A DNA stretch of 45,660 nucleotides from a virus: IMG/VR virus record IMGVR_UViG_3300035688_000013, positions 1 through 45,660 of that record; one strand, 5' to 3'. This document shows, in pieces, positions 2,962-34,003 of the stretch. The notes below the pieces were generated by a model. It had not been told where the DNA came from and searched no databases. It saw only the letters and a program-made list of their open reading frames with translations. The position numbers and the translations under genes were made by a program. The stretch's first letter is position 1, and every line of letters begins with the position of its first letter.

Positions 2962-3795
2962 TTAAGCCTCCTTAGGATACCCTACCGCATTTTGTTTGAG
3001 TATTTTCGCGTCTGGATGTACGTAGATCGTGTCGTCTTTGATTGCTGTGGCTAGTCTGCCTTTCAGCTCGGCTCTCGAAGAACCACGCAGCTCGGCACTC
3101 GAAGAATCATGCAGCTCGGCACTCGAAGAACCACACAGCAAGGCTCTCGAAGAATCATGCAGCTCGGCACTCGAAGAATCATGCAGCACGGCTCTCGAAG
3201 AATCATACAGCACGGCTCTCGAAGAATCATGCAGCACGGCTCTCGAAGAATCATGCAGCTCGGCACTCGAAGAACCACACAGCAAGGCTCTCGAAGAATC
3301 ATACAGCTCGGCACTCGAAGAACCACACAGCTCGGCACTCGAAGAATCATGCAGCACGGCTCTCGAAGAACCACACAGCAAGGCTCTCGAAGAATCATAC
3401 AGCACGGCTCTCGAAGAATCATGCAGCTCGGCACTCGAAGAATCATGCAGCTTGAGGAAGGTGTCGGTTACTGTAACTGATTCATCGTTGAGGAGTAGGT
3501 TGATTTTGACGCTTTCAGTCCATGCTTTCCAGCACGCTTTTGTTGCTTTTGCGACGTTTTTCTCGTACCACTCGGGGAGTGTTCTTTCGTCGTCGATTTT
3601 GAGTGTCCAGTCGTCTTGGTTTCGTGTTATGTGGGGGCCTTTTGGATTTATTTCTATGCGGATGAAGTCGCGGTCTTGGAGTTTCTTGTCGTCCAGCTTT
3701 GTTGATTCGATTATGGCCTCGTGGTTCATGGGGTTTTGTTTGAGCCAGTGGACGTTGAGGTCGCGGGTTATGATGCAACTAAAATACTCACACAA
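2962..3795 (-). CDS. Octapeptide-repeat protein with pentapeptide-like solenoid
   Basis: The N-terminal 110 or so residues form a globular domain with the segment ERTLPEWYEKN; then come sixteen 8-residue repeats of the form x-D/G-S-S-R/S-A-x-L (3068-3452), then a short tail. Related repeat proteins occur in phages and bacteria and probably fold as a narrow beta solenoid with Ala and Leu facing inward. I place the start at TTG 3795, just after the RHH gene stop, although the frame is open to an ATG at 3843 inside that gene. The 24-bp DNA repeat makes several other frames open; these are shadows. Function unknown; solenoids of this kind can mimic DNA or scaffold partners. Confidence 0.75.
   Translation of the reverse strand: MCEYFSCIITRDLNVHWLKQNPMNHEAIIESTKLDDKKLQDRDFIRIEINPKGPHITRNQDDWTLKIDDERTLPEWYEKNVAKATKACWKAWTESVKINLLLNDESVTVTDTFLKLHDSSSAELHDSSRAVLYDSSRALLCGSSRAVLHDSSSAELCGSSSAELYDSSRALLCGSSSAELHDSSRAVLHDSSRAVLYDSSRAVLHDSSSAELHDSSRALLCGSSSAELHDSSSAELRGSSRAELKGRLATAIKDDTIYVHPDAKILKQNAVGYPKEA
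3068..3452 (-). repeat. Sixteen tandem 24-bp repeats inside a coding region
   Basis: About 385 bp made of 24-bp units that differ at a few fixed positions, so the array stays in frame and encodes an octapeptide solenoid. Nearly identical neighbouring units invite copy-number change by slippage or recombination. Confidence 0.95.
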
Positions 3796-3800
3796 AACCC

Positions 3801-3938
3801 TTAAGCCTCCGTTGCATTTTTGCGGATTATCGTGCGAATCCATGTAGTTGGGTGCTTGAAACCTTCCTTCTTCGCCTTCTTCTCAGATAGTTTCCATTCT
3901 TCCATGCTTATGGTGATACGTTTTTGGTGCTTGTCCAT
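3801..3938 (-). CDS. RHH transcriptional regulator, 45 aa
   Basis: ATG at 3938, TAA at 3801. The layout is strand-helix-helix: KRITISMEEW (strand), then SEKKAKKEGF and TTWIRTIIRKN as helices, the classic Arc/CopG/MetJ fold. Such dimers insert the strand into the DNA major groove. It is transcribed away from a second RHH gene (4071-4238) and from a palindromic operator at 3989-4010, so it probably autoregulates and controls the neighbour. Confidence 0.8.
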   Translation of the reverse strand: MDKHQKRITISMEEWKLSEKKAKKEGFKHPTTWIRTIIRKNATEA

Positions 3939-5778: not shown

Positions 5779-6110
5779 GCTTTCGCCAACCTATCAAAGA
5801 CATCTTGATTTTGCCTACTAACTTTCCATAAAGTCAAAGCATTAACTATTACAGGAGCGTTCAAGGCTAATGCAAAAAACATCAATAGCAGACTGTTATC
5901 ATAGAGAACCAAAAGGCACAACAACATCAAAGAGCCAGTAACGGTTAAGAGACAATGCACATATTTTTCCTCTATTTTTTTGGTGAGAAAATTAAAAACT
6001 CGATTCCGTTCTCTGCAACCCATTTTCAAACCTATTTTTGTTAGCAACTCGTCAACTAGCAATGCAGAAACGCCAATTATGAAACTTAATATAGAAACTA
6101 AGCTAGGCAT
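5775..6110 (-). CDS. DUF5658-like membrane protein, 111 aa
   Basis: Three to four hydrophobic segments (about residues 5-22, 50-70, 72-95). The first loop has the pattern D-E-L-L-T ... G ... G ... E-x-N, seen in archaeal DUF5658-type membrane proteins. Overlaps both neighbours by a few bases. Function in that family is unknown; in a virus it may alter the host membrane or block superinfection. Confidence 0.65.
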   Translation of the reverse strand: MPSLVSILSFIIGVSALLVDELLTKIGLKMGCRERNRVFNFLTKKIEEKYVHCLLTVTGSLMLLCLLVLYDNSLLLMFFALALNAPVIVNALTLWKVSRQNQDVFDRLAKA

Positions 6111-6189
6111 AGGAATCTCTGCTAACCCTCCATTTTTTAAAATGACTTATGAATTCAAGATATAGATAGCCAATATTCTTTCTTTTCAC
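6103..6189 (-). CDS. Possible 28-residue basic micro-protein
   Basis: GTG start with GGTGG 6 bases upstream; the stop overlaps the next ATG. Basic and aromatic-rich (KRKNIGYLYLEF). Fills the gap between two better supported genes. Confidence 0.45.
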   Translation of the reverse strand: MKRKNIGYLYLEFISHFKKWRVSRDSYA

Positions 6190-6202
6190 AGCTCCACCCG
6201 CA

Positions 6203-6391
6203 TCAGCAGAATATGTAGTCAAGCATGTTAATATCAACATCATTCGCCTTGAGGTTAGCAATACATTTCCTACAGGAACACTGGTATGCCAAGCAATCAA
6301 TCCATTGATTGGCCCAGCTTGCTGATGGATCTTCCTTCAAGACTTTGTCTAGCCTTCTCATTGCAAAATGCTCTTTATTCAATATATCCAC
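6203..6391 (-). CDS. Cys-rich protein, 62 aa
   Basis: GTG start at 6391 in the divergent region facing the plus-strand block. Cysteines in DCLAYQCSCRKC (about residues 32-42) could bind metal; helices flank them. First gene of the leftward arm, so expressed from the 6392-6605 region. No family recognised. Confidence 0.65.
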   Translation of the reverse strand: MDILNKEHFAMRRLDKVLKEDPSASWANQWIDCLAYQCSCRKCIANLKANDVDINMLDYIFC

Positions 6392-6551
6392 CCTTTAGCA
6401 TCAATGAGACTTAGGAAGTATTAGAATCTTTCGTTTTGAACAAGAATTCTTATTAGAACACTCACCCAAAAGGTAGGATTAGCCTTCCACAAGTTTCTTT
6501 CAGTGTATTTTTTGTATCTTGGTTCGTTTTTGTCCCCTAGTGTGCTTTCTG

Positions 6552-6566
6552 CAAAGGTTTTAAATA
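6552..6566 (+). promoter_or_regulatory. BRE/TATA promoter for the rightward accessory block
   Basis: CAAAGGTTTTAAATATA (6552-6568) looks like an archaeal BRE followed by TATA, 40 bp before the ATG at 6606, which has GGTGG as ribosome site. The rest of the 214-bp divergent interval 6392-6605 has no frame I can support. Confidence 0.65.
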
Positions 6567-6605
6567 TAGGGTATTACAATCGTAATGTTCAAGGTGGTTT
6601 AGAAT

Positions 6606-7313
6606 ATGGAAAATTCTCTTTTAGAACAACCAATCGAAGAATCTACCAAAGGAACTTATGTAACTCAGCAAGCACGCAAGCTTCAAGCTGAAGCGTCTTT
6701 TGCGACCTACATGGTTAAGGGTACATTGTTTAATATTCATGGGGATTGGGCAAAGCGCGAGATGCAGTTTAACGGAACGGTTTGGCATGTTGTTGACAAG
6801 GAAATCGGTGCGGAAGAGACTCAACGAGGCGACTTTGAATCAAGCCTTCAATCTGGAAAGCAAACAGAAACGAAGAAAACTAGAACTATCACAAAAGAGG
6901 CTCATTGTTTCCCTAGAGAAAACGGCAAACCAGTGATTCCTTTAGGCGGTCCAAGAGGCTACGTTTGTGGCATGTTCCGTGCAGCTGCAAGAACAAGAGG
7001 ATGGAACAAGAAAGGAAACAAGTATTTCGGCGCTCTATCCTTCATTGACAACGGCGGATTCCTAGTTACTCCACAATGGTTCAAAGTGCAAAGTGACGTT
7101 GAAGTCAAACTGAGACCGTTCTTTGTGAAGGAAGCTAAAGGCGAAGTTTTCTTTGAGTATATCGAAGAAGTGCCAATTGACTTCGCCGTTTCTGTAATGA
7201 AGAACGCGATGCCTGAAGACATGCCATTGCAATTACTGGGCGATTTGGAAAGACTTCCGATTGGTCCAAAACGAAGAGGAACACTAAAACTCACAAGCAT
7301 ACAAAAAATCTAA
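6606..7313 (+). CDS. Hypothetical protein, 235 aa
   Basis: ATG at 6606 with a GGTGG ribosome site. Not recognised. The N-terminal 35 residues are polar; then come a strand-rich region, a basic loop (KKTRTITKE, about 90-98) and a Gly-rich segment IPLGGPRGYVCGMFRAAART (about 110-130) followed by basic GWNKKGNKYFG. The Gly-rich loop before a helix recalls RAMP/Cas7-like proteins, where such a loop touches RNA, but the match is weak. It has its own promoter and is followed by a pyrimidine-rich tract, so it is a one-gene unit. Confidence 0.75.
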   Translation: MENSLLEQPIEESTKGTYVTQQARKLQAEASFATYMVKGTLFNIHGDWAKREMQFNGTVWHVVDKEIGAEETQRGDFESSLQSGKQTETKKTRTITKEAHCFPRENGKPVIPLGGPRGYVCGMFRAAARTRGWNKKGNKYFGALSFIDNGGFLVTPQWFKVQSDVEVKLRPFFVKEAKGEVFFEYIEEVPIDFAVSVMKNAMPEDMPLQLLGDLERLPIGPKRRGTLKLTSIQKI

Positions 7314-15519: not shown

Positions 15520-15972
15520 ATGTTAGAAACAAAAGACCTGAAAGAGTTGGATAGTCGTGACGTTGCAGATGCTCCCAGAGTGATGGCTATGCTGTTTGAA
15601 GGTAAGGAGCATACTGAGATAGCGGATGCTTTAGGGATGGAGCAAGCAAGCATAACGCGGAAGATTCACAGGCTTATGGATACGCGGGAGTTTCAGAACG
15701 CGTTGACGACAGAGTGGATTCGACGTTATGGCGAGATGCAAATTTCTAACCCGAAGGAAGCATTTAAGCATCTTACCCGACTGGTTGCGCAGACTATCAC
15801 CCGTCACTTCGAGAGTAATCAGGAGGTTACGTTGACAGAGAGGCGTGAACTTGTCACAATCGCAATCCGAAATTATGAGGCAGAAACTGAAGCAGAACTT
15901 GATAGAATTCTTCAGGCAAACCGTCTTAGAGAACCAGTGGATTCCACACCCTCCACACCCGAAACAAGCTAG
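15505..15972 (+). CDS. terS: Terminase small subunit, 155 aa
   Basis: Lies directly before the large subunit. The N-terminal half has a helix-turn-helix (HTEIADALGMEQASITRKIH, about 36-55) typical of terminase small subunits that recognise packaging DNA; the C-terminal half is helical for ring formation and ends Thr/Ser/Pro-rich. ATG at 15505 is used; ATG 15520 is possible. Its end overlaps the large subunit by nearly 100 bases in another frame. Confidence 0.75.
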   Translation: MVLIVMLETKDLKELDSRDVADAPRVMAMLFEGKEHTEIADALGMEQASITRKIHRLMDTREFQNALTTEWIRRYGEMQISNPKEAFKHLTRLVAQTITRHFESNQEVTLTERRELVTIAIRNYEAETEAELDRILQANRLREPVDSTPSTPETS

Positions 15973-17158
15973 TTTCCTCATGCTTGACTGCCGCGAAGCA
16001 CTGTATGGCGGCGCAGCAGGCGGAGGCAAAAGCGACGCGCTCTTGATGGCAGCGTTGCAGTTCGTTGACATACCAGAATATTCAGCGATAATCTTCAGAC
16101 GAAGCTTCACCGACCTAGCATTGCCAGGGGCCCTAATGGATAGGTCGCAAGAGTGGCTCGGCGGAACAAAAGCCCGCTATAACAACTTAAACCACATCTG
16201 GACGTTCCCTTCAGGCGCAACACTCGCATTCGGCAACCTAGAACACGAACAAGACAAGTTCCGCTACCAAAGCGCAGAATTCCAGTACATAGGCTTCGAC
16301 GAACTCACCCAATTCCTCGAATCACAATACCGTTACCTCTTCAGCAGACTCAGACGCGCCACCAACAGTCCAATCCCACTCCGCATGAGAGCCGCCAGCA
16401 ACCCCGGCAACATCGGCCACGACTGGGTAAAACAGCGATTCATGCTTGAAGGCTCACAATATGGCCGAATCTTCATCCCCGCAAAACTCGAAGACAACCC
16501 CTCCTTAGACAGAAAAAAATACATCGAAAGCCTAACTGAACTTGACCCCATCACGCGAAGGCAATACCTCAACGGAGAATGGACTGCAAGACACGGCGGC
16601 AACATTTTCCTAAGAGAATGGTTCCAAATCATCAACGAAACGCCTGCAACCGTTCGACTCGCACGATTCTGGGACATGGCAGCCACCGAACCCAAACTCA
16701 ACAGAGACCCAGACTACACGGTAGGCGCATTAGTCGGAGAAACAAAAGGAATCTCCTACATCATAGACATCAAACGAATCAGAAAACCCCCACCCCAAGT
16801 TGAAGCATTGATAAAACAAACCGCCCAAACAGATCCGCCGAACACGAGAACCTACATGGAACAAGAACCAGGAAGCAGTGGAGTCGGACAAATCGACTAC
16901 TACGCTCGACAAGTTCTCCACGGCCACAGTTTCTGGGGAGTCAAAAGCACAGGACCCAAAGCAGAACGCGCCGTACCCGTCTCAAGCGCAGCCGAAGCGG
17001 GAAACGTCAAACTCAAACAGGCACCATGGAACAACACGCTTCTAGACGAATTTGAAGCTTTTCCACAAGGATCACATGACGACCAAGTAGACGCTGTCAG
17101 CGGCGCATTCCAACAGTTGCGCCATCACGGAGACATTCACGCTTGGAGACTCGGATAA
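15875..17158 (+). CDS. terL: Terminase large subunit, 427 aa
   Basis: ATPase and nuclease that packages DNA into the prohead. Walker A GGAAGGGKS at about 45-53, Walker B IGFDEL near 140, motif-III-like SNPGN near 180, then the RNase-H-like nuclease with RFWDMA (about 258-263) and HDDQVDAV near the C-terminus supplying acidic residues. I start at ATG 15875; GTG 15845 is in frame and adds ten residues. The overlap with the small subunit is unusually long. Confidence 0.92.
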   Translation: MRQKLKQNLIEFFRQTVLENQWIPHPPHPKQASFLMLDCREALYGGAAGGGKSDALLMAALQFVDIPEYSAIIFRRSFTDLALPGALMDRSQEWLGGTKARYNNLNHIWTFPSGATLAFGNLEHEQDKFRYQSAEFQYIGFDELTQFLESQYRYLFSRLRRATNSPIPLRMRAASNPGNIGHDWVKQRFMLEGSQYGRIFIPAKLEDNPSLDRKKYIESLTELDPITRRQYLNGEWTARHGGNIFLREWFQIINETPATVRLARFWDMAATEPKLNRDPDYTVGALVGETKGISYIIDIKRIRKPPPQVEALIKQTAQTDPPNTRTYMEQEPGSSGVGQIDYYARQVLHGHSFWGVKSTGPKAERAVPVSSAAEAGNVKLKQAPWNNTLLDEFEAFPQGSHDDQVDAVSGAFQQLRHHGDIHAWRLG

Positions 17159-18670: not shown

Positions 18671-20068
18671 ATGAGCAACCGTTTTGAACTTAAACACATT
18701 GGGCTAGCCACTGCCATGCCTCGTGGCAGAGCCATGAGCATCCCCCTCTCTGGAACAGAAGGCGGAGGCGAATTCGGCGCATTAATCCTAGATGAAGACC
18801 GCACTTTCGCGGTAACGCGGGAACCCGTAGCGCATCGCATAGTCTTCACGGTTGCACATGACATTTTCGACCATTGGTTCCAACTTTACTTAGAGGGCAG
18901 TGAGCAGGACAAAACCTTCGATACTGCTATCCAGAAGGAACTCACCAGAATCAACGCCAAACCTGAACTCATGCGCATGTCAACGTTTGACCGCGCCTAC
19001 GGCTGGGCAATCATCGTGTTGGGCTATGAAGACGGGGCAGGAAGTCTTGCTGAACCAGCAACAAACCCGCAAGGGTTACATGAGGTGAAAGCGTACAGTC
19101 CCGTGCAGATTACAAAGGTTGATGAAGTCAAAGGCAAGTCTCGTTTAGATGATCCACATTACGGCTTACCCGAATACTATTACGTCAAACGTGGCAATCA
19201 ATTAAGTCCCCTCAAAATCCACTATTCAAGAGTAATCCACTTTGCATCAAGACTGCTAGACCACGATTGGAAAGGCATGAGCACCCTCGATCCCGTGTGG
19301 GATGACATTGTCACGCTACGGAACATCAGGTGGGGCATGGGGCAAACCATGTACCGCTACGGACACGGCTTCCCAGACCTCACGTTTGAGGGCGCAGAGT
19401 TAGCGGACATTGACGCTTGGATTGAGGATGCCAACTTTGCCAACCTGTCAGCTCGCACATACTTTGCGCACAACGAAAAACAGACGATAGAATTCAAGGG
19501 ACTCGCAGGACGCGCCCTTGACCCGATGAACTATTACTTGCCAATCATGGAAAACATCAGCGCAGGCTCAGGCATCCCACTTGCCATTTTACGCGGAGTT
19601 CAAGCTGGAACGTTGACGGGTTCGGAAGTGAACCAGCAAGAGTATTTCGCGCTCATCGGCGACGAAGAAACCTACTATGAAACTGGAATCCGCCAACTCA
19701 TAAACGCAATCCTCCAAACCGTCGGAGAAAGCGAGGTTCAATTCAAGTTCAAGTGGATGGGCGGCTTCCAACTTGACGACCTGAAGCAGGCCCAAATAGA
19801 TCAGGTGAAGGCTCAAACGTTGCAGACAAAGGGCGATTGGCACACTCGGAACGAGTTGCGCAAGATGGAAGACCCAACCTTGAAGGATTTGACTAAAGAG
19901 CAAGGCGGAGACGAACTTCTCAACAAAGGACCTCAGAACCTTTTTGAACCAAACAAGTTTCCAACTGGAAACGCTCCTGAACAGCGCCAGCCAGATACAA
20001 ACCTCAACAAAGACGCAAGTGAAAAGGACGATAAACGGTACACGGTGATTGAGCATAAGCAACGTTGA
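18671..20068 (+). CDS. Portal protein, DUF1073-like, 465 aa
   Basis: Forms the vertex ring through which DNA enters and leaves the head. The segments IHYSRVIHFASRLLDHDWKG, STLDPVWDDIVTLRNI and GMGQTMYRYGHG follow the DUF1073/Mu gp29-like pattern, and a helical stem region (DEETYYETGIRQLINAIL) is near 325-350. Pro/Gln-rich C-terminal tail. Length fits the family. Confidence 0.85.
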   Translation: MSNRFELKHIGLATAMPRGRAMSIPLSGTEGGGEFGALILDEDRTFAVTREPVAHRIVFTVAHDIFDHWFQLYLEGSEQDKTFDTAIQKELTRINAKPELMRMSTFDRAYGWAIIVLGYEDGAGSLAEPATNPQGLHEVKAYSPVQITKVDEVKGKSRLDDPHYGLPEYYYVKRGNQLSPLKIHYSRVIHFASRLLDHDWKGMSTLDPVWDDIVTLRNIRWGMGQTMYRYGHGFPDLTFEGAELADIDAWIEDANFANLSARTYFAHNEKQTIEFKGLAGRALDPMNYYLPIMENISAGSGIPLAILRGVQAGTLTGSEVNQQEYFALIGDEETYYETGIRQLINAILQTVGESEVQFKFKWMGGFQLDDLKQAQIDQVKAQTLQTKGDWHTRNELRKMEDPTLKDLTKEQGGDELLNKGPQNLFEPNKFPTGNAPEQRQPDTNLNKDASEKDDKRYTVIEHKQR

Positions 20069-20537: not shown

Positions 20538-20812
20538 CATGCCTTCACCACATCGTTGACGCAGTTCAAGTCGTCAAAGCCGTCCAGCAACCCAGCGGCA
20601 CAAGTTGGTACACACACGAAGACATCTGGCTATTCAGACCCGTATTTGACGACAAAGTATGCGACGTCTGCGCTGGCTACGAGGCTGAAGCACAGTGGCA
20701 CGGCGACGAAATCGTACTGGAATTTCCCGATCACATGATCGTTGACGCTGACAGAATCAAAGTCAATATTCATCCCAACTGCAGATGTTATCTGGAACGG
20801 GTCATAATCTGA
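20534..20812 (+). CDS. MuF-like minor head protein, C-terminal part only, 92 aa
   Basis: ATG 20534 in an ATGA overlap. Contains CDVC (about 43-46) and HPNCRC (about 81-86), the metal-binding signature at the end of Mu gpF-like head morphogenesis proteins. These normally exceed 250 residues, so only the terminal domain is present. Placed just after the portal, as usual for MuF. A second protein with the same signature is at 38128-38754. Confidence 0.7.
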   Translation: MTCLHHIVDAVQVVKAVQQPSGTSWYTHEDIWLFRPVFDDKVCDVCAGYEAEAQWHGDEIVLEFPDHMIVDADRIKVNIHPNCRCYLERVII

Positions 20813-21621
20813 TTCAAATATTCATCCCAACTTGGAACAGCGAACGCACAATCAAAGAATGCATTGAATCGCTGAAACAAACCAACTTAGACATCGACAT
20901 TACAGTAGTGGACAACTTTTCCACAGATGCCACCGTCAAGATAGCAAGGTCGGCACGAGCAAAAACCGTCAGTCTCAAAGCCAATGTTGGGCAAGCACGA
21001 ACGTGGATCTGCAGGAACGCAACAACCGACTGGTTTGTGATGGTTGACTCCGACGCCATGGCCTGTGATGGTTGGTTGGAACAACTTTTCACCTTTAAGG
21101 ATTCTTTCAAAGACAGAAGGTTAGCCGCTGTTTGCTGTTCTCCCCTAGAAAGGCAAGTCACAAATGACGTGAAGTTGAAACGGGCATTACAGGCTAACTC
21201 AACCAAATCTGCCAAATACTATTCAAAACCCTTCAAAAATGAAGGAAGATTCGCCGTTAGCCTCTGCCTCGTCAGAACGGATGCCGTCAGAAACTTTGAG
21301 ACAAACCATGCGGTTCTGGAAGACATACTATTCGGATGGTACGTCAACGACCACGGATGGAACTATTACACCGTGCCCATACCGTACTTCCACAAGCCTC
21401 TCTTAACTAAAGGAAACACGGTGAGGCGGGCAAGAATCATGGGCGCATGGATGCGCAAGATACGGTACACGTCACTGCCAGCCCTCCTGTTCAACTTGTT
21501 CCGCGTACCCGCGACCTCTCCTTGTGGCGCCAAAACCCAGAACTTCAAAGTCTACGTCAACCTCATCGTCGGATGGCTAACCCACAGCCGATACACAACC
21601 GACTACCAGTGGGCAAGGTGA
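20785..21621 (+). CDS. Family 2-like glycosyltransferase, 278 aa
   Basis: GT-A fold: IFIPTWNSE at the start, ITVVDNFSTD (nucleotide-sugar binding) and VMVDSDA, whose DSD is the metal-binding DxD. It would transfer sugar from a nucleotide donor, in the cytoplasm. No membrane span. With the following methyltransferase it forms a modification pair between head genes, perhaps decorating virion or host surface glycoprotein. Start ATG 20785 overlaps the MuF-like end. Confidence 0.85.
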   Translation: MLSGTGHNLIQIFIPTWNSERTIKECIESLKQTNLDIDITVVDNFSTDATVKIARSARAKTVSLKANVGQARTWICRNATTDWFVMVDSDAMACDGWLEQLFTFKDSFKDRRLAAVCCSPLERQVTNDVKLKRALQANSTKSAKYYSKPFKNEGRFAVSLCLVRTDAVRNFETNHAVLEDILFGWYVNDHGWNYYTVPIPYFHKPLLTKGNTVRRARIMGAWMRKIRYTSLPALLFNLFRVPATSPCGAKTQNFKVYVNLIVGWLTHSRYTTDYQWAR

Positions 21622-21651
21622 CACCCAATAGAGTTAATCAACAGGAAAACA

Positions 21652-22224
21652 ATGCAAATACGCCACGCCATAGCAAAAGTTCTGGTTCCCGGAGTTTACA
21701 GAGAATACCAAATGCTCAGGAAAGGTTCAGCCGTTCCCAGACCGATGATAAGGTTCCTCAAAAACCAAGGGCGAAACTCGTTAACAGGCATTGAAATAGG
21801 CGTTTTCGAAGGAACCAACGCGCTCAACATCATCCACGAATTAGCCATGAAAAAACTTGTTCTCATCGACCCCTACCAAACTTACTCGGAACAAGGCGAA
21901 AGTGTTAGTTCCATTCACGCCAAAAAGCTTGCGTTAACACGACTCTCAAGATTCAGAAACGTAGAGTTCATCAAGAAAACTTCTGATGAAGCAATCAAGA
22001 GCGTGGTTGATCCGTTGGATTTCGTGTATATCGACGGGAACCACGAGTACCAGCATGTTAGGAAGGACATAAGAAACTATTATCCGCAAGTGAAAAAGGG
22101 CGGCGTTATCGGCGGGCATGATTACTTCTTGCCCTCCGTTATGCGTGCAGTGAACGAGTTTGTTCAAATTTTAGGTGTGCCTAACTTTCACGTTTGCTAT
22201 CCAGATTGGTGGATCGTCAAATAG
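21652..22224 (+). CDS. SAM-dependent methyltransferase, 190 aa
   Basis: Methyltransf_24-like Rossmann fold: GIEIGVFEGTNA (SAM-binding motif I), then KLVLIDPY (motif II acid), DFVYIDGNHEYQHV and KKGGVIGGHDY. Such enzymes often methylate sugars, matching the adjacent glycosyltransferase. Starts 30 bases after it. Its 3' end touches the convergent capsid paralog. Confidence 0.85.
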   Translation: MQIRHAIAKVLVPGVYREYQMLRKGSAVPRPMIRFLKNQGRNSLTGIEIGVFEGTNALNIIHELAMKKLVLIDPYQTYSEQGESVSSIHAKKLALTRLSRFRNVEFIKKTSDEAIKSVVDPLDFVYIDGNHEYQHVRKDIRNYYPQVKKGGVIGGHDYFLPSVMRAVNEFVQILGVPNFHVCYPDWWIVK

Positions 22225-22963
22225 TTTGAACACCTTGAATTTCGCAAATAGCCGTAGCCTCGCAGATGGCAGGGGCAAGGCACTCCCAAAGTCTATAGCC
22301 TATATCCTTCATCCAACAAACAGTTAAGTCTGCACCCATAACCAAAACGAAATTCGTTTCGCTTGGCTTAACAGCCAACATATTATCTTGCTTTCCATTA
22401 CGGGCAAACAAACATGGCGAATGACGAATATATTGAATGCCCATAGGTAATTTTAACGGTATATCCGAGCATTTGGTCTCATCATTTACCACAACATCAT
22501 AGGGTGATTGATGCCCGCACTCTTGCACCCGTCTCGTCGCTTCAAGCAAATCCCTTTCAAAATCGCCACAAGACTTAATCATGCTTCGACCTTTGGCAGT
22601 GGCTAATCCTTCTATTCCCAAGCATGGCCAACCTTTATGCTCTCCTGTCAATAACAATGTATCCTCGTCTTTGACGATTTTCAAAGTTGCCTCTTCAATC
22701 TTTGCTGGGGTAACTGGCAAACTGATGTCGGCTGAAATTATGGGCAGGCTTGAAACTTTGCCTTTAAACTTTTCGCGTAGAACATCATTATTTGGGAGTT
22801 GTTTGATAGAAAATAACTTTCGCCCAACAAGATTGTCACACATAATCTTTATCGCTTGGGCTTCAATCTCTTGCAATTCTTTTAGTTCCTTGAGTTTCTC
22901 GCGGTTCCTAGCTTGATACTTTCGCACATAACCACGCTGTTTTTCCTTATCCTTGAACGGCAT
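22217..22963 (-). CDS. Divergent encapsulin-like capsid paralog, 248 aa
   Basis: Opposite in direction to all late genes. Residues about 45-248 parallel the major capsid protein (25089-26021): EDTLLLTGE ... GIEGLATAKGR against EDRLIITGE ... GIQGLATATGR, and FVLVMGADLT ... ATAICEI against FELIMGADIT ... TAICEI. The N-terminal 45 residues are a new basic helix (QRGYVRKYQARNREKLKEL). The layout equals the HK97/encapsulin fold. A BRE/TATA promoter (22994-23013) and AGAGGTTGAAG ribosome site serve this gene alone. Options: minor capsid subunit, dominant-negative inhibitor of a competing virus, or a captured encapsulin. Confidence 0.8.
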   Translation of the reverse strand: MPFKDKEKQRGYVRKYQARNREKLKELKELQEIEAQAIKIMCDNLVGRKLFSIKQLPNNDVLREKFKGKVSSLPIISADISLPVTPAKIEEATLKIVKDEDTLLLTGEHKGWPCLGIEGLATAKGRSMIKSCGDFERDLLEATRRVQECGHQSPYDVVVNDETKCSDIPLKLPMGIQYIRHSPCLFARNGKQDNMLAVKPSETNFVLVMGADLTVCWMKDIGYRLWECLAPAICEATAICEIQGVQTI

Positions 22964-22993
22964 ACTTCAACCTCTACGGTTTAGTGAACCCTT

Positions 22994-23013
22994 GAGCATA
23001 TAACACCTTCGCC
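22994..23013 (-). promoter_or_regulatory. Promoter of the capsid paralog
   Basis: Minus-strand GGCGAAGGTGTTATATGCTC, closely matching CGAAGGTTTTATAAGC at 7660-7675. It is about 35 bp before the ATG at 22963. Confidence 0.6.
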
Positions 23014-23038: not shown

Positions 23039-24085
23039 ATGAAGAAAATCGGTTACGACAACATGAAATTCGATGCACTCCAAATAGTAGAAGATACTCG
23101 GTGTTGCCTAAAAGTCAACGCCGTCATAACAAAAGAAGGCGTCTACCCATACCCAGACGGCAGAGCCTTAAAGTGCAGAATGGAACTCTTGAAAGCCACT
23201 CACACAGCCCGCAACGCAAAAATCACTATCCTCGACCACCCAGACAGCATGGTAATAATGAGCCAAAACCAGATTCACGGCGTAGTCGAAAAACCATTCT
23301 TTGACCGCGACAAAATACGCGCAATCCTCAATTTTGACAAGGCCGTATGCCCCAAAGACTTCGTGGACAGCGTAAGAAACGGCACAGCAAGCAAAGACGT
23401 GAGCATAGGCTTCTACTATCAACCTGACATGACTCCGGGCAAGTGGGGCGACAGCAACTATGATTACGTGATGCGCGACATCGTCATCGACCACGTTGCC
23501 GTAGGCGTGCTGAAGGGCAGATGCAGTTTTCCAGATTGCGGCATAGGCGTGGACAGTATGATGAAACGGATAGCCTTCAAAGAAGACAAGGTTGTGCAAC
23601 GCGGTAACCAGTGGTGTGTCATTCATTGCCACGGAGAGGAAGAAGGCGAAGTAATCAAGTGTTTTCCCACGAAAGGAGAGGCGGAAGCCATGCACAGGGC
23701 GATTGAAGCCCAGAAAGGTGATGAAATTACAGGAGGTAAGAAAAGTTTGAGTGAAACAAAACCAGACGAGTTTAAAGCGTTTGTTACGCAAAGAATGAAA
23801 GATGGTTACACGCAACTGCAAGCTGAAGAATACTGGCACGAATATGTGACGGGAACCAAACCCGCTGAAACGCCGCCACTTCCACCAGCAACCACGCCAC
23901 CCGCCGAATTGCCTAAAGACCCCGCAAAACCGCTAGAAACCCCGCTACCACCGCCATCTGTTCCGACAACGCCCCCGCCAGAATTGACTGCCGAGCAACT
24001 CATTGACCGCAGCAAAGAACTGTTGAATATGCGAGGACAGAAGGTCATTGAAGAGCGCAGGGTAGACCGCAGGCATCCCGTATAG
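23039..24085 (+). CDS. DUF2213-type prohead protease, 348 aa
   Basis: Matures the head by cutting scaffold and capsid precursors. Seen: ITKEGVYPYPDG (opening strand of DUF2213), ITILDHPDS (His), SKDVSIGFYY (Ser) and VIDHVAVGVLKGRC (His), consistent with a His-Ser-His serine protease. After residue 180 comes a small domain with CVIHCHGEEEGEV, then a Pro-rich linker (about 270-310) and a charged end, possibly an internal scaffold. Confidence 0.75.
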   Translation: MKKIGYDNMKFDALQIVEDTRCCLKVNAVITKEGVYPYPDGRALKCRMELLKATHTARNAKITILDHPDSMVIMSQNQIHGVVEKPFFDRDKIRAILNFDKAVCPKDFVDSVRNGTASKDVSIGFYYQPDMTPGKWGDSNYDYVMRDIVIDHVAVGVLKGRCSFPDCGIGVDSMMKRIAFKEDKVVQRGNQWCVIHCHGEEEGEVIKCFPTKGEAEAMHRAIEAQKGDEITGGKKSLSETKPDEFKAFVTQRMKDGYTQLQAEEYWHEYVTGTKPAETPPLPPATTPPAELPKDPAKPLETPLPPPSVPTTPPPELTAEQLIDRSKELLNMRGQKVIEERRVDRRHPV

Positions 24086-24224: not shown

Positions 24225-24641
24225 ATGAATGATGAAAAATCAAAGACGGAAACGGCTTTAGATTCAACAGTAAAAGTACAATTAGCTTCAATAACGTTGG
24301 ATAATGCTAGATTAACAAAGGAAAACGCAGTACTCGCAGAAGAAAACAAGGGTTTGAAAGCACAGAACGTGCAGTTGGCAAGCGTCATCGAAACCGACTT
24401 GAAAGCCGACTTGAAACTGAAAATCATGGCTAAAGGCGACTATAAAGATGCAGACTTGGAACCATTGAAGGTTGAGCAGCTGCAACAGATAGATGAGACA
24501 TTGAGCAGGGGCAGAGGCGCAGACAGCGTTTCTTACAAGCCGATCAGGGCAGGAAACGACACCAACACAGGGCGAATGACAATCGGCGACTTGTACGGCA
24601 AGACACCCCAGCAAATCCGCGACATGAAAGGTGACTTCTAA
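24225..24641 (+). CDS. Scaffold-like coiled-coil protein, 138 aa
   Basis: ATG after CGAGGAGACTAAAACTT. Residues 15-62 form a coiled coil (LTKENAVLAEENKGLKAQ), the rest is charged and then Arg/Gly/Thr-rich, ending DMKGDF. Position between protease and decoration/capsid genes fits an assembly scaffold. Confidence 0.65.
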   Translation: MNDEKSKTETALDSTVKVQLASITLDNARLTKENAVLAEENKGLKAQNVQLASVIETDLKADLKLKIMAKGDYKDADLEPLKVEQLQQIDETLSRGRGADSVSYKPIRAGNDTNTGRMTIGDLYGKTPQQIRDMKGDF

Positions 24642-25096
24642 TGCCACAGCATCCAGTACAAGCAACAAACGCCATTCTAGTATCAGGAGAACCTATCATC
24701 GAAGAATACGAAGTTGAAGACTGCACCAACATGTACCCCGGCATGTTCGTCATCACAGGAACAGCAGCGCACCAAGTAAAAGTAGCCACGGACAGTTCCG
24801 ATAAGGTCATAGGCATACTTGACGTTATGGCCGACGAAAACCGAGCAGACATGTACACCGACTCACGCACCTATGTTAACAACCAGCAAGTTCGCGTATT
24901 ACGCGGCGACTGCGTAGTCATGGCACGAGTAGACCATGCAGCAGTCATCACCGTAGGCATGAAAGTAGAAGTTTCAGATGCCACAGGCTCCGTAGCACCA
25001 TACGCAACTGCAAACTGTGACGTAGGAATAGCTGAAGAAGCACATGCGGCAGCCGCGTTAGACGGCTGGCTCATCGTTCACCTCCAGAATGTCTAG
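24641..25096 (+). CDS. Capsid decoration-like protein, 151 aa
   Basis: Beta-rich, Gly/Ala/Val-rich small protein (GMFVITGTAAHQVKVATDSS, VIGILDV, VRVLRGDCVVMAR). Resembles DUF2190-type head decoration or cement proteins and lies directly before the capsid gene with a one-base overlap. Assignment rests on composition and position. Confidence 0.65.
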   Translation: MPQHPVQATNAILVSGEPIIEEYEVEDCTNMYPGMFVITGTAAHQVKVATDSSDKVIGILDVMADENRADMYTDSRTYVNNQQVRVLRGDCVVMARVDHAAVITVGMKVEVSDATGSVAPYATANCDVGIAEEAHAAAALDGWLIVHLQNV

Positions 25097-26021
25097 GCGA
25101 TCACACATGAACACGATGAAACGAATCGGACTCGCAACTGGAACCCTCACAGACTACGAAATCAACTACATCGAACAGCAAATAGTCAAAACTGCAAGAC
25201 CAAGACTCATCGGAAGAACCCTCATGCCCACTCGCATGTTGCCAAGCGCAGGCAGCACGCAATACACGTTCTACACTGAGAATGACATGAGCCAAGCACT
25301 CATTAGCATGACAGGCGAAGAGCAAGACATGGACCTAGTAGACCTCACCGAAAGCCACGTTCACGTTCCAATCTTGAGCAAAGACTACATGCTCCACTGG
25401 CGAGACGTAGTGAAAAGACGCGACGCAGGCGAAGACTTGAACACTCAATTCGCGGAAAACGCTGCCATACAAGTAGGAGAAGAAGAAGATCGGCTTATCA
25501 TCACGGGCGAAAACACCGCTGGCACAGTTGCAGCGTGGAACGCTCTGGGCATTCAGGGATTGGCAACCGCGACAGGCAGAAACACGCAGGCAGGCGGAGA
25601 CTGGGATGCTGCCCCCGCGGCAGCGGCAGGCGCACCCTACTACGTTTCACTCGCCAAACAGGCAATCAGAGCCGACGGTCATAACGGGCCTTGGAGATTG
25701 ATTCTCAGAAGTGCATGGTATGCGCAACTTGAAAACTACGTGGCCAACTTTGACAGAAGCCTTCTGGAATTGACAGGTGACATCGTAGGTGGAGTCGAAA
25801 ACATCTTGATAAGCGACAACCTCTACAGCGCCGCAGGATTGATAACTACCGCAGTGCTAATCAGCATCGAACCAGGCAACTTTGAGTTAATCATGGGTGC
25901 AGACATCACCAACTATCTGGCGCAACTGCCCACAATGAACTATCAAGGCAAAGTCTGGGAAGCCGTAGTCCCTGTGATCAAGAGACCAACCGCGATATGC
26001 GAGATTACAGCTTTAACTTAA
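25089..26021 (+). CDS. Major capsid protein, HK97/encapsulin-like, 310 aa
   Basis: Shell subunit. The order of elements (SAGSTQYTFYTEND extended loop, long spine helix around LNTQFAENAAIQVGEEED, GIQGLATATGR, P-domain GPWRLILRSAWY, then FELIMGADITNYL and a final TAICEI strand) matches the encapsulin-like branch of the HK97 fold. The first ATG is at 25089; ATG 25107 or 25116 are in frame and equally good. A reverse-strand paralog lies 2.1 kb upstream. Confidence 0.85.
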   Translation: MSRRSHMNTMKRIGLATGTLTDYEINYIEQQIVKTARPRLIGRTLMPTRMLPSAGSTQYTFYTENDMSQALISMTGEEQDMDLVDLTESHVHVPILSKDYMLHWRDVVKRRDAGEDLNTQFAENAAIQVGEEEDRLIITGENTAGTVAAWNALGIQGLATATGRNTQAGGDWDAAPAAAAGAPYYVSLAKQAIRADGHNGPWRLILRSAWYAQLENYVANFDRSLLELTGDIVGGVENILISDNLYSAAGLITTAVLISIEPGNFELIMGADITNYLAQLPTMNYQGKVWEAVVPVIKRPTAICEITALT

Positions 26022-27905: not shown

Positions 27906-30900
27906 GTGAAAACAAATAAATTGTCAGCAGTTCTTTTAGTGGTTCTCATATTCGCCACATCGTTATGGATTAATTGGCAAATCACGATAGTCAACGCAAC
28001 CACGATTTTCGAGGATGACTTTGAACTTGGAAATGGGTTGTGGACTGGCGGGACATCCGTTACTGGTTCATCTACCATTGCAGCAAGCAACCTCAAACCC
28101 TACACTAACACAAATTCCTGCAAAGTCACTGTGATTGGCAGTTACCACGCCTATAATTGGTATCAATTGGCTTCTTCAGAAACCACCCTTCACGTCAGAA
28201 CCTACATGCAATACAATACTACGAGTCCGTCTAACGCTTTCGCATTCGCTTGTATTGCGGATCAAGTGGAAGTAGTCTATAATTTTGGAACTACTAAATG
28301 GGGAATCATGTACCGAAATGACGTTTTCGCAGATGTCACTTCATACGAAGCGGGCACGTCAGCGTTTGCCATTAATACTTGGGTCTGGTACGAAGTTGAC
28401 GGCATCAAAAACAACCCGACATCCAGCATCAACCTCACGATAAACGGCGTCGAAAAACTGAGTCTAACTGGACTGAACGTTTCAAGCACGAACTGGGACC
28501 AGATTGGCGCAGGTGTTGATACCTGCAACGATTGGGGTCACACGACAACATGGTATTTTGACACCTGCAAAGTTTCCAACAGCGCACACGTGGGCGCGTA
28601 CGCGGCAGACTCAGATGCGCCAACTTACTCTGACATTTCCAATTCCACAGATGACGCGGGAGCACTAATCACTTTCGCGTGTTACTGGACTGACACGTTG
28701 GACTTATACCAAGGAATCTTCGGCACCAACAATACGGGCATCTGGGTCAATGATACGGCATATCTGTTCAATTCTAACCCGTCATGGTACAACGTCACAA
28801 AAAACTTGAACGAAACCGTAGGCAATGAAGTACAATATGAGTGGTGGGCTTCTGACAGCGCTGGAAACTGGAATAACACGGGAATCCAAACTGTAGTTGT
28901 GGCTACTGCGCCTGCTGATACTACGGCACCGACGGTTTCGCAGGTATCGGCTTCCAGCACCGTCGCCAGTTCAACCTGCACCTTCACAAGTTACTGGACA
29001 GACGATTTTACATTAGACTATGGCATCTTTGGAACCAATAACACGGGACCATGGATTAACATGACTGCCGTATCCTTCAATTCCACAACGCCTTCATGGT
29101 ATTCGGAAACTAAAACCTTAAACGAAACAGAAGACAACATAGTGCAATACTGTATTTGGGCAAATGACACTAGCGGTAACTGGGCAAACACTACCATCCT
29201 CTCCATAACTATCACCAGCAACGCCGTCTTGAACGCTTCCGCGGGAATGTTGAGCGAAACAAGAGCCGTCTACCTATATAGCACAGACACATACACATAC
29301 AATGCCACACTTTTGATGCTGACCCTAGCAAGTTACGGATTCAACGAAGTCTACTTTGACACTTCACCATGTTTCTACACAGGATACTCATTCCATCACT
29401 TCAGCGACTTGATAACGGCAGCAGAAGCATACGGCATACGAGTCGGCGTCCTGTTCCAGTTTTACGGTTTTGACGAAGCGTACACGGCTGCCAGCGAAGT
29501 TGCTTATCCGCAGTATGGGTTCGGCGGGCATGACGACACGTGGAAAATGGCATACGCCAATGGAACAGCAGTCAACTGGTGCAACTTTGCCAGCACAACC
29601 TTCCAAGCCAGAGTCAAACTTGTCATACAAACACTTGTGACAAACTTCACAGGAATAAGCGACATCTGCTTGGACTACGTAAGATACCCAACTCAAGACT
29701 GCGGATTCAGCGCCACCATCCAAGAACAAATAAGTTATGACACCTATAGTCAAGCCGACTTCGCTACTTGGCTTTCCGCACATGGCAAAACGCAGGGAAC
29801 ATGGCCTAACGACTTCGTTCACGGCGCTTCCCGCTGGGACGATTTTGCTGAGTGGCGATCTGACGAAGTAAGTGAGATGGTTCACAATGTGCGGGATTGG
29901 GCTTTGGCGAAAAGGACGAACATAACAATAGGTGCGGCTACATGGAGCATGTATGGTGGCATAACCGCTGATACATGGAAAGATTATATGGGGCAAGACC
30001 CAGCCACATGGATACATGAAGGTTACATCGACACGTTGAACCCTATGATTTACACTTCTGACACAACTACCTTCGCAACAAAACTCGGCAACGAACCTAC
30101 ATACCACACAGGAAACACGAATGGCGCCGTACCCTTGATTCCGTGGATAACCGTAGGTGGACCAGGAGGTGACGTCACAAGTCCTCTGTCAAACTACACA
30201 TGGTCAACTGAAATCAATAAAATCAGGGAGGCAGGCGGCAACGGCTTCATAGTGTGGCGCTACCGAGGACCGGGATGGGGTGACACTTCATTCACAGATA
30301 ATGAGCCATACATGCAGTTGGTTACTTCTGGCACTGTGAAAGGAGCGTTCACAGTTTTCACTTCTACCCAACCTACAGCGAATAATTCAATCATATCATG
30401 GACAACCAGTGTAACCACCACTGGGAAAGTCGAGTATAATACAACTACCCTATTTAGCGACACAGAACATGAAGGAACCTACTGCACCTACATTGATATA
30501 CATTACATACAAGGAACCAACGCAACTGACTCCAATGTGGCAACCACTCATGCCGTAACATTGCCTATTGAACCACCCTTTTACTTCCGAACCATGAGTA
30601 ACGACGCCTACATCAGCCTAAGCAGTAGCATGTTTTATGTATCTTCATCTTCAGGAGTCGTAGTAATCATCACTTATCCACTCAATACCACCTATACGGC
30701 CAGCACCATCCCAGTTGATTTTGATGCCAGTGGCGGAGTGATAGATGACAAATCGTGGAACTGCAAAAACCAAAGTTCGTGGATTTACCCATCAAACCAG
30801 ACCTATACTTCACCCACTTCCATGACAGGAATCACAATAGACGGAACCTACGTGTTCTATGCCTTCGCAACTAACCAAGAAGGCAACAGCACCTCAGAAA

Positions 30901-31124
30901 CGGTAACCTTCACCGTTTCAATGAGCGGATGGCAAAGTGGCGTCACCTACACTTGTCGAGGACATGCCAAAGACGTGTTCATCAGTGGAGGAACCGTCAC
31001 CGATGTGAAAGTCAATGGCATAACCGTGTTCACATGCACCGACGTTTGGGTTCATCTCGAACCAACATGGACAATCTGCATCACATGGACGAGTGCGCCT
31101 AGCATCAAAGTTTTCGGGGAATAG
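27906..31124 (+). CDS. Secreted GHL10-like glycosidase with Ig-like domains, 1072 aa
   Basis: GTG start. Signal peptide at about 5-32; beta-sandwich (about 35-225, LamG-like ends GLWTGGTS... and WYFDTCKVSN); two Ig-like repeats (about 234-336 and 337-440), each with GxFGTNNTG and YWTD; a barrel domain at about 447-810 with LDYVRYP (near 590), WDDFAEWRSDEV and LNPMIYT (near 711), as in GHL10/DUF187 glycoside hydrolases; then beta domains to the end. Very many sequons. With a signal peptide it should act outside the cell, attacking surface polysaccharide for exit or entry. Confidence 0.8.
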   Translation: MKTNKLSAVLLVVLIFATSLWINWQITIVNATTIFEDDFELGNGLWTGGTSVTGSSTIAASNLKPYTNTNSCKVTVIGSYHAYNWYQLASSETTLHVRTYMQYNTTSPSNAFAFACIADQVEVVYNFGTTKWGIMYRNDVFADVTSYEAGTSAFAINTWVWYEVDGIKNNPTSSINLTINGVEKLSLTGLNVSSTNWDQIGAGVDTCNDWGHTTTWYFDTCKVSNSAHVGAYAADSDAPTYSDISNSTDDAGALITFACYWTDTLDLYQGIFGTNNTGIWVNDTAYLFNSNPSWYNVTKNLNETVGNEVQYEWWASDSAGNWNNTGIQTVVVATAPADTTAPTVSQVSASSTVASSTCTFTSYWTDDFTLDYGIFGTNNTGPWINMTAVSFNSTTPSWYSETKTLNETEDNIVQYCIWANDTSGNWANTTILSITITSNAVLNASAGMLSETRAVYLYSTDTYTYNATLLMLTLASYGFNEVYFDTSPCFYTGYSFHHFSDLITAAEAYGIRVGVLFQFYGFDEAYTAASEVAYPQYGFGGHDDTWKMAYANGTAVNWCNFASTTFQARVKLVIQTLVTNFTGISDICLDYVRYPTQDCGFSATIQEQISYDTYSQADFATWLSAHGKTQGTWPNDFVHGASRWDDFAEWRSDEVSEMVHNVRDWALAKRTNITIGAATWSMYGGITADTWKDYMGQDPATWIHEGYIDTLNPMIYTSDTTTFATKLGNEPTYHTGNTNGAVPLIPWITVGGPGGDVTSPLSNYTWSTEINKIREAGGNGFIVWRYRGPGWGDTSFTDNEPYMQLVTSGTVKGAFTVFTSTQPTANNSIISWTTSVTTTGKVEYNTTTLFSDTEHEGTYCTYIDIHYIQGTNATDSNVATTHAVTLPIEPPFYFRTMSNDAYISLSSSMFYVSSSSGVVVIITYPLNTTYTASTIPVDFDASGGVIDDKSWNCKNQSSWIYPSNQTYTSPTSMTGITIDGTYVFYAFATNQEGNSTSETVTFTVSMSGWQSGVTYTCRGHAKDVFISGGTVTDVKVNGITVFTCTDVWVHLEPTWTICITWTSAPSIKVFGE

Positions 31125-33136: not shown

Positions 33137-34003
33137 ATGGTTAAGGTTTGCCAGTCATGCGTAGACAAACTTGCAAAGCGGCTCCTAGAGAACCATCCAG
33201 ACCTCTCAGAGAAAGAAGCGGCAAAGCGAGCCGAGCAAGGCTTCAAGCGGATGGCAAAAAGGCAGAAGCGAGAAAAAAAGCAGAACGCTTGGGTTCCTCT
33301 CTGGACAAGATACTATCATGTGCAAAAGGGAATCCCGAAACGAAAAGCCTACCATATGGCAATCCGAATCGTCAGTCGCCTCAACGCGAGTATAACGTCT
33401 AAGAAAGACGAATTGAAGGCAATGGGCTATTTTGACCCCGTAGTGAACTCCGTTTACATACCTGTCAAGATTCTCGATAGGGGCGACATCCCACTCTTCT
33501 ACGGCACTCACAAAGAAACTCGATTCTGGGTTTTCAGAGAAAAACTGTTCCGCTGGGTTTTCCACGGAAACTTGAAAGCGATCATTTACTGGAGTTTTAA
33601 ACTCCGAAAACTCACGTTCATTGGCAATTCGTACAATCCTGACTATACGCAAGCCTGCACGCAATCAACTTGTGCGGAATCTAATTCCTGCTCAAATGTG
33701 GGAGACGCTTGCATAACCGCCGCAAATTGTGACTTTGGTGGGTGCAGTTTTACCGCTGGTTGTGGTTGCCCAGCCCCCTTATCCAACAGTACTTTAACCA
33801 CTAATTGCAGTTCAACCTGCGCTAGCACAGGCGGCGCCTGCGGAACCTGTGTGACCAAAAAATGTACCGCAGACACTTGTACCGTGACAAACTGCACCGT
33901 GGGAACCTGCGGGTACACTTGCGATGTAGGATTCACGTGGAACGGCGTAGCCTGCGTGGCATCAACGAAACTGCAAAGAAACAAAGTAGGCGTGGGACTC
34001 TAA
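33137..34003 (+). CDS. Protein with a cysteine-rich C-terminal domain, 288 aa
   Basis: N-terminal half is basic and helical (CQSCVDKLAKRL at the start, KRQKREKKQ near 45), then a beta region with aromatic residues. From about residue 172 to 275 there are some 26 cysteines in Thr/Ser/Asn-rich sequence (CAESNSCSNVGDAC, CGCPAPL, CDVGFTWNGVACV), like disulfide-knotted extracellular domains. No signal peptide is visible, which is odd for such a domain. A host-binding or sheath role is possible. Confidence 0.65.
   Translation: MVKVCQSCVDKLAKRLLENHPDLSEKEAAKRAEQGFKRMAKRQKREKKQNAWVPLWTRYYHVQKGIPKRKAYHMAIRIVSRLNASITSKKDELKAMGYFDPVVNSVYIPVKILDRGDIPLFYGTHKETRFWVFREKLFRWVFHGNLKAIIYWSFKLRKLTFIGNSYNPDYTQACTQSTCAESNSCSNVGDACITAANCDFGGCSFTAGCGCPAPLSNSTLTTNCSSTCASTGGACGTCVTKKCTADTCTVTNCTVGTCGYTCDVGFTWNGVACVASTKLQRNKVGVGL

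Follow-up and report, generated by a model that had tools for sequence, protein, structure and literature searches.

The window, a single virus record of 45,660 bp analysed here in full, carries tailed-virus head genes on the plus strand, and within this region an earlier note had pointed to a reverse-strand relative of the major capsid protein (MCP) that the virus itself encodes. The question raised by the locus is what a second capsid-fold gene, turned against the head genes, does for the virus; the note had proposed a minor shell subunit, an inhibitor poisoning the assembly of related viruses, or a captured encapsulin with cargo. The 248-residue reverse-strand product is indeed encoded by an intact ATG open reading frame, which lies between a methyltransferase gene and the gene for a DUF2213 protein (Table 1), the latter probably the head-maturation protease.

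Table 1. Positions of the paralog, its parts and its genomic surroundings in the window.
Feature	Position	Strand	Basis
Terminase	15845-17158	+	
Portal	18671-20068	+	Pfam
Methyltransferase gene, pointing towards the paralog and overlapping its end by 8 nt; accessory cargo of the portal-protease interval	21652-22224	+	
Capsid paralog without E-loop (HK97/encapsulin fold), 248 aa	22217-22963	-	ORF, BLASTP, Pfam, fold search, orthologue
Paralog capsid-fold part, residues 29-248, in which the E-loop, a segment of the P domain and pieces of the A domain are missing	22220-22879	-	
Basic leader not present in the MCP, residues 1-28 (MPFKDKEKQ..Y.RKYQ)	22880-22963	-	
Ribosome-binding-site-like GAGGTT, 5 nt before ATG, within the 28-nt block conserved in L011	22969-22974	-	
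13-bp dyad GGTTCACTAAACC, candidate operator between the TATA-like box and the expected start site	22978-22990	-	
TATA-like TTATATG upstream of the dyad	22997-23003	-	By sequence
DUF2213 protein, transcribed away from the paralog, with 75 bp between the two genes	23039-24085	+	Pfam
Cement protein	24641-25096	+	Pfam
MCP, 310 aa, encapsulin-like Linocin_M18 family, with E-loop	25089-26021	+	
MCP E-loop codons 58-90 (58-64 and 73-90 deleted from both paralogs)	25260-25358	+	15-homologue comparison

Glycosyltransferase and methyltransferase genes lie within the head operon (20785-22224), and similar enzymes occur at varying places in related viruses, suggesting modification of the virion or the host surface. 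A scaffold candidate lies at 24225-24641. A weak tyrosine-integrase match suggests a temperate life style. Further features of the virus are a 24-bp unit repeated 16 times in tandem (3064-3452), which lies inside a reverse-strand gene (2962-3843) and encodes 8-residue repeats such as LHDSSSAE/LCGSSRAL, and two late-region proteins without a PHROGs match: one of 1072 aa that combines repeated domains with a signal-like N-terminus (27906-31124), and one whose N-terminal half is rich in lysine and arginine and whose C-terminal half is very rich in cysteine (33137-34003).

Kinship of the paralog with the MCP was confirmed by BLASTP at a level far beyond chance (72.4 bits, E=2e-19), with an alignment spanning almost the full length of both proteins. 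The profile search that the earlier note had called for gave the same answer, Pfam Linocin_M18 (PF04454) matching both the paralog (34.5 bits) and the MCP (64.2 bits) above the cutoff of 24.3, and encapsulins of solved structure matched the paralog by sequence with a best E of 2e-4. The paralog structure predicted with AlphaFold2 (mean pLDDT 70.7, moderate confidence) had encapsulins as its top PDB matches both in Foldseek (E 1.4e-11; best matches, EncA shells) and by VIA (Z 13.6, rmsd 4.9 over 203 residues), and phage MCPs ranked below them; the fold result depends in part on the sequence result because MCP rows were in the alignment behind the model. Prediction of the MCP structure gave no usable model (pLDDT 46.6). 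The proposed HK97/encapsulin fold is thus supported by sequence (BLASTP, Pfam) and, for the predicted model, by fold search. A match between the paralog and MetJ (E=0.4) was attributed to chance. Cysteine content differed among the proteins, with 10 residues in the paralog, 1 in the MCP and 5 in the orthologue described below.

With the MCPs of the same virus and its relatives (L004-L011) the paralog shares an ED..L..GE.....LGI.GL core and the C-terminal strand, but it stands on the opposite strand with its own candidate promoter, lacks the E-loop, falls in a separate clade outside the MCPs and is only about 30% identical to any of them. An MCP would be expected to have a complete HK97 fold with E-loop, to run in the direction of the head genes and to be universal in the virus group, none of which holds for the paralog. 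Scored against 15 full-length homologues, MCP residues 58-64, 73-90, 104-115, 221-226 and 280-283 (47 columns) are deleted in both known paralogs; the gaps at 58-64 and 73-90 take away most of the E-loop, that at 104-115 belongs to the P domain, and pieces of the A domain are gone as well. Accordingly, of the claim that the two proteins share motifs in the same order and spacing only the order stood, since the GIxGLA-to-FxLxMG interval measures 89 residues in the paralog vs. 111 in the MCP and the FxLxMG-to-AICEI interval 33 vs. 37.

The viruses nearest by MCP were L004-L010 in IMG/VR (58-66% identity), and a virus contig in a Bathyarchaeota MAG, L011, has an MCP 57% identical to that of the window virus; from L011 and the MCP relatives in that class we infer from sequence that the uncultured host belongs to the Bathyarchaeia. 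An orthologue of the paralog was found in L011 only (6029-6775, minus strand), where it encodes 248 aa, is 43% identical end to end and has the same deletions and a basic leader. It also lies antisense to head genes and near the MCP gene, between the portal gene and a head-morphogenesis gene. The decaying frame in relatives that had been named as evidence against the capsid-paralog reading was therefore not what we saw, the orthologue having kept both length and architecture. The paralog was absent from seven related viruses in which the same interval is sequenced which leaves two carriers among nine related viruses. In L005 the portal-protease interval is empty, and in other viruses it holds glycosyltransferase, methyltransferase, lectin-like or beta-helix proteins.

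Wider searches returned no third copy. The other 256 of the 257 Bathyarchaeia genomes searched had no short-form paralog, their matches being full-length MCP-like proteins with E-loops or fragments thereof; in one of these genomes (G094) a stop or a change of frame interrupts a second MCP-like copy (L020, 2-805, minus strand). No further copy came from pattern scans of IMG/VR, whether based on the paralog itself, its L011 counterpart, the alignment of the two, the GEHKGWP stretch or the promoter block, and scans of phages and plasmids found no further paralogs, the reach of these scans being close relatives. In a Thermoproteota sample of 398 genomes, full-length MCP/encapsulin-like proteins were found, besides G008, instead of stripped paralogs, together with an encapsulin fused to ferritin in G557 and, in G309, a weak match that is unrelated. 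Ferritin-encapsulin fusions are known for archaeal encapsulins, and a ferritin-like domain, read by eye, is apparently fused ahead of an encapsulin in a Thermoproteota genome (L037, 1495-2631, minus strand).

The claim that the gene has its own promoter gained plausibility from the conservation of its upstream block in front of the orthologue. The 28 nt upstream of the two start codons share 24 identities (alignment score 31), a score reached by none of 5000 random pairs (best 26) and equalled by one of six co-linear late-gene pairs. Because the gene occupies different slots in the two viruses, the 28-nt block has evidently moved with it. The dyad, which like the ribosome-binding-site-like sequence falls inside the block, pairs at five of six arm positions in the window and is perfect in L011 (GGTTTAGTAAACC), perfect 13-bp dyads occurring at 0.011 per 75 nt of window; the TATA-like box of L011 reads TTAAATA, and its spacing to the dyad centre is nearly equal in the two viruses (16 vs. 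17 nt). The dyad lies at a position from which an archaeal repressor might prevent initiation. A search against Rfam gave no RNA element.

In a phylogenetic tree the two paralogs form one clade with 99-100% support, outside the MCP clade and on long branches. This topology rules out a recent in-situ duplication of the MCP gene, and, although the long branches leave the exact placement of the clade unsure, it points to a lineage that separated long ago and changes faster than the MCPs do; divergence of the paralog between the window virus and L011 is about twice the MCP divergence or more. Identities between paralog and orthologue at the three codon positions (0.53/0.65/0.36) follow a purifying pattern with the frame kept, and the orthologue speaks strongly against a pseudogene. 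GC content of the paralog gene is 0.423 vs. 0.512 for the MCP gene, and 0.371 vs. 0.44 in L011, about 7-9 points lower. Because a distant virus carries gene and promoter elsewhere, we regard the paralog as a maintained accessory gene, and the different slots with a travelling block, the lower GC and the sporadic presence together mark it as mobile and apparently separately regulated (a moron); at the level of sequence it has a moron's apparent separate transcription unit, different base composition and sporadic occurrence among relatives. Judged by these comparisons, the paralog is neither a recent MCP duplicate nor a normal encapsulin, and the two genomes show an accessory, stripped capsid subunit with a predicted basic helical leader, maintained together with its upstream block in two divergent viruses.

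The leader replaces the MCP start. The new basic N-terminal helix described in the earlier note was borne out, with a net charge of +6 in the first 30 residues (MCP, +1) and a helix predicted at residues 6-44. The 28-residue leaders of the two paralogs (+6/+7) are 61% identical, a degree of conservation exceeded in the protein only by the GEHKGWPxLGIxGLA stretch (86%). A KD..KQ..Y.R.YQ DNA pattern matched three IMG/VR records, two of them readable as proteins with the motif, one carrying an Endonuclease_7 domain (L041; PF02945, 2.8e-22) and the other short and without a Pfam match (L040). The best leader match among GenBank phages was the leader of an HNH endonuclease, a short match below significance (E=4), and stand-alone basic leader-like proteins of about 50 aa occur in two Bathyarchaeia genomes in uninformative neighbourhoods. 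The likeness to phage HNH/endonuclease VII leaders weakly suggests a nucleic-acid-binding role.

The best mechanism we can offer, tentatively, is that the paralog is a decoy capsid subunit expressed in lysogeny that interferes with the assembly of competing viruses. While the virus is dormant, a repressible promoter belonging to the gene would drive production of the paralog. Retaining part of the MCP interface, this defective subunit would join or titrate the scaffold or capsid protein of a related competitor and block productive shell formation, as a dominant-negative capsid. During late expression of the virus itself, transcription of the head operon would run antisense through the gene and shut it down, which might avoid self-poisoning. 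This model best fits the MCP homology, the loss of assembly parts, the sporadic presence, the separate promoter and the reverse orientation taken together. Precedent comes from Tai, assembly inhibitors that prophages carry and whose autoimmune effect is turned off during the lytic cycle (PMC11364771). Tai of prophages and satellites (PMC11364771) and TcaP of PLE (PMC10945586) are mobile-element proteins that hinder the assembly of another phage, a likeness proposed here for function only, but TcaP is an external scaffold (PMC10945586) and neither is described as a capsid-derived decoy. The paralog had no match in the PADLOC models (2023 library) at E<=0.1. Co-assembly with an MCP is uncertain because of the low identity noted above, and the leader, being among the most conserved parts, may speak for a nucleic-acid role instead of a decoy. 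A fuller version, in which a decoy with a nucleic-acid-binding leader poisons incoming relatives and is silenced by antisense late transcription during the virus's own assembly, seems to us doubtful; such a protein would be a viral counterpart of capsid-derived restriction factors.

Rather unlikely is a nucleic-acid-binding regulator or effector in which the capsid fold would serve as an oligomer platform and the leader would bind DNA or RNA, possibly the dyad of its own promoter. The conservation of the leader, its +6/+7 charge, its similarity to the phage endonuclease leaders, and the dyad that in either copy separates the TATA-like box from the start agree with such a function, but the paralog contains neither an HNH or other catalytic domain nor a DNA-binding Pfam family, and the leader similarity is short and statistically weak.

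We also consider it unlikely that the paralog is a minor virion protein, that is, a divergent capsid copy at a vertex, around the portal or in the head interior, its leader touching packaged DNA. T4 offers a parallel in the vertex protein gp24, which shares about 20% identity with the MCP gp23, probably arose through duplication of that protein's gene and is, like the paralog, a second capsid-fold gene of low MCP identity in a tailed virus (PMC9958956). The basic charge of the leader also fits, and the N-terminal helix of family 1 encapsulins contributes to a pocket for interior cargo (PMC8346489). Yet gp24 has a structural role at the vertex and is essential for viability, whereas the paralog is sporadic, antisense and stripped, and its own candidate promoter and the missing E-loop, an element of neighbour contacts, further weaken the minor shell subunit proposed earlier.

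An encapsulin-like nanocompartment with its own cargo is improbable. The top Pfam, NCBIfam and PDB matches of the paralog are family 1 encapsulins, with which it shares fold and sequence family (PF04454; NCBIfam encap_f1), but its score against the curated family model is below the cutoff (encap_f1, 36.6 bits vs. 100), the full E-loop is missing, the P and A domains are shortened, the P domain by a whole segment, and a basic leader is added. The paralog lies in a virus head region among head genes rather than beside a cargo gene, and since the neighbours differ between the two loci there is no conserved partner, which disfavours the captured encapsulin with cargo. Family 4 A-domain encapsulins are, like the paralog, truncated HK97-fold proteins from archaea, but they are A-domains of about 100 aa beside enzymes (PMC8346489), whereas the paralog retains N-arm, spine helix and C-terminal strands and has instead lost parts of the E-loop; it has 248 aa and matched only PF04454, not DUF1884. 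A degenerating capsid copy without function, to which the long branches and the excess divergence over the MCPs of the same two viruses might point, is very improbable and largely refuted by the orthologue, the distant second virus having the same length and deletions, an intact frame, the promoter block and a purifying codon pattern.

The capsid fold is known from shells, nanocompartments and vertex proteins, and a stripped, mobile accessory subunit suggests a further viral use of it. Should it interfere with assembly, the paralog would count as a restriction factor of archaeal viruses that derives from a capsid protein.
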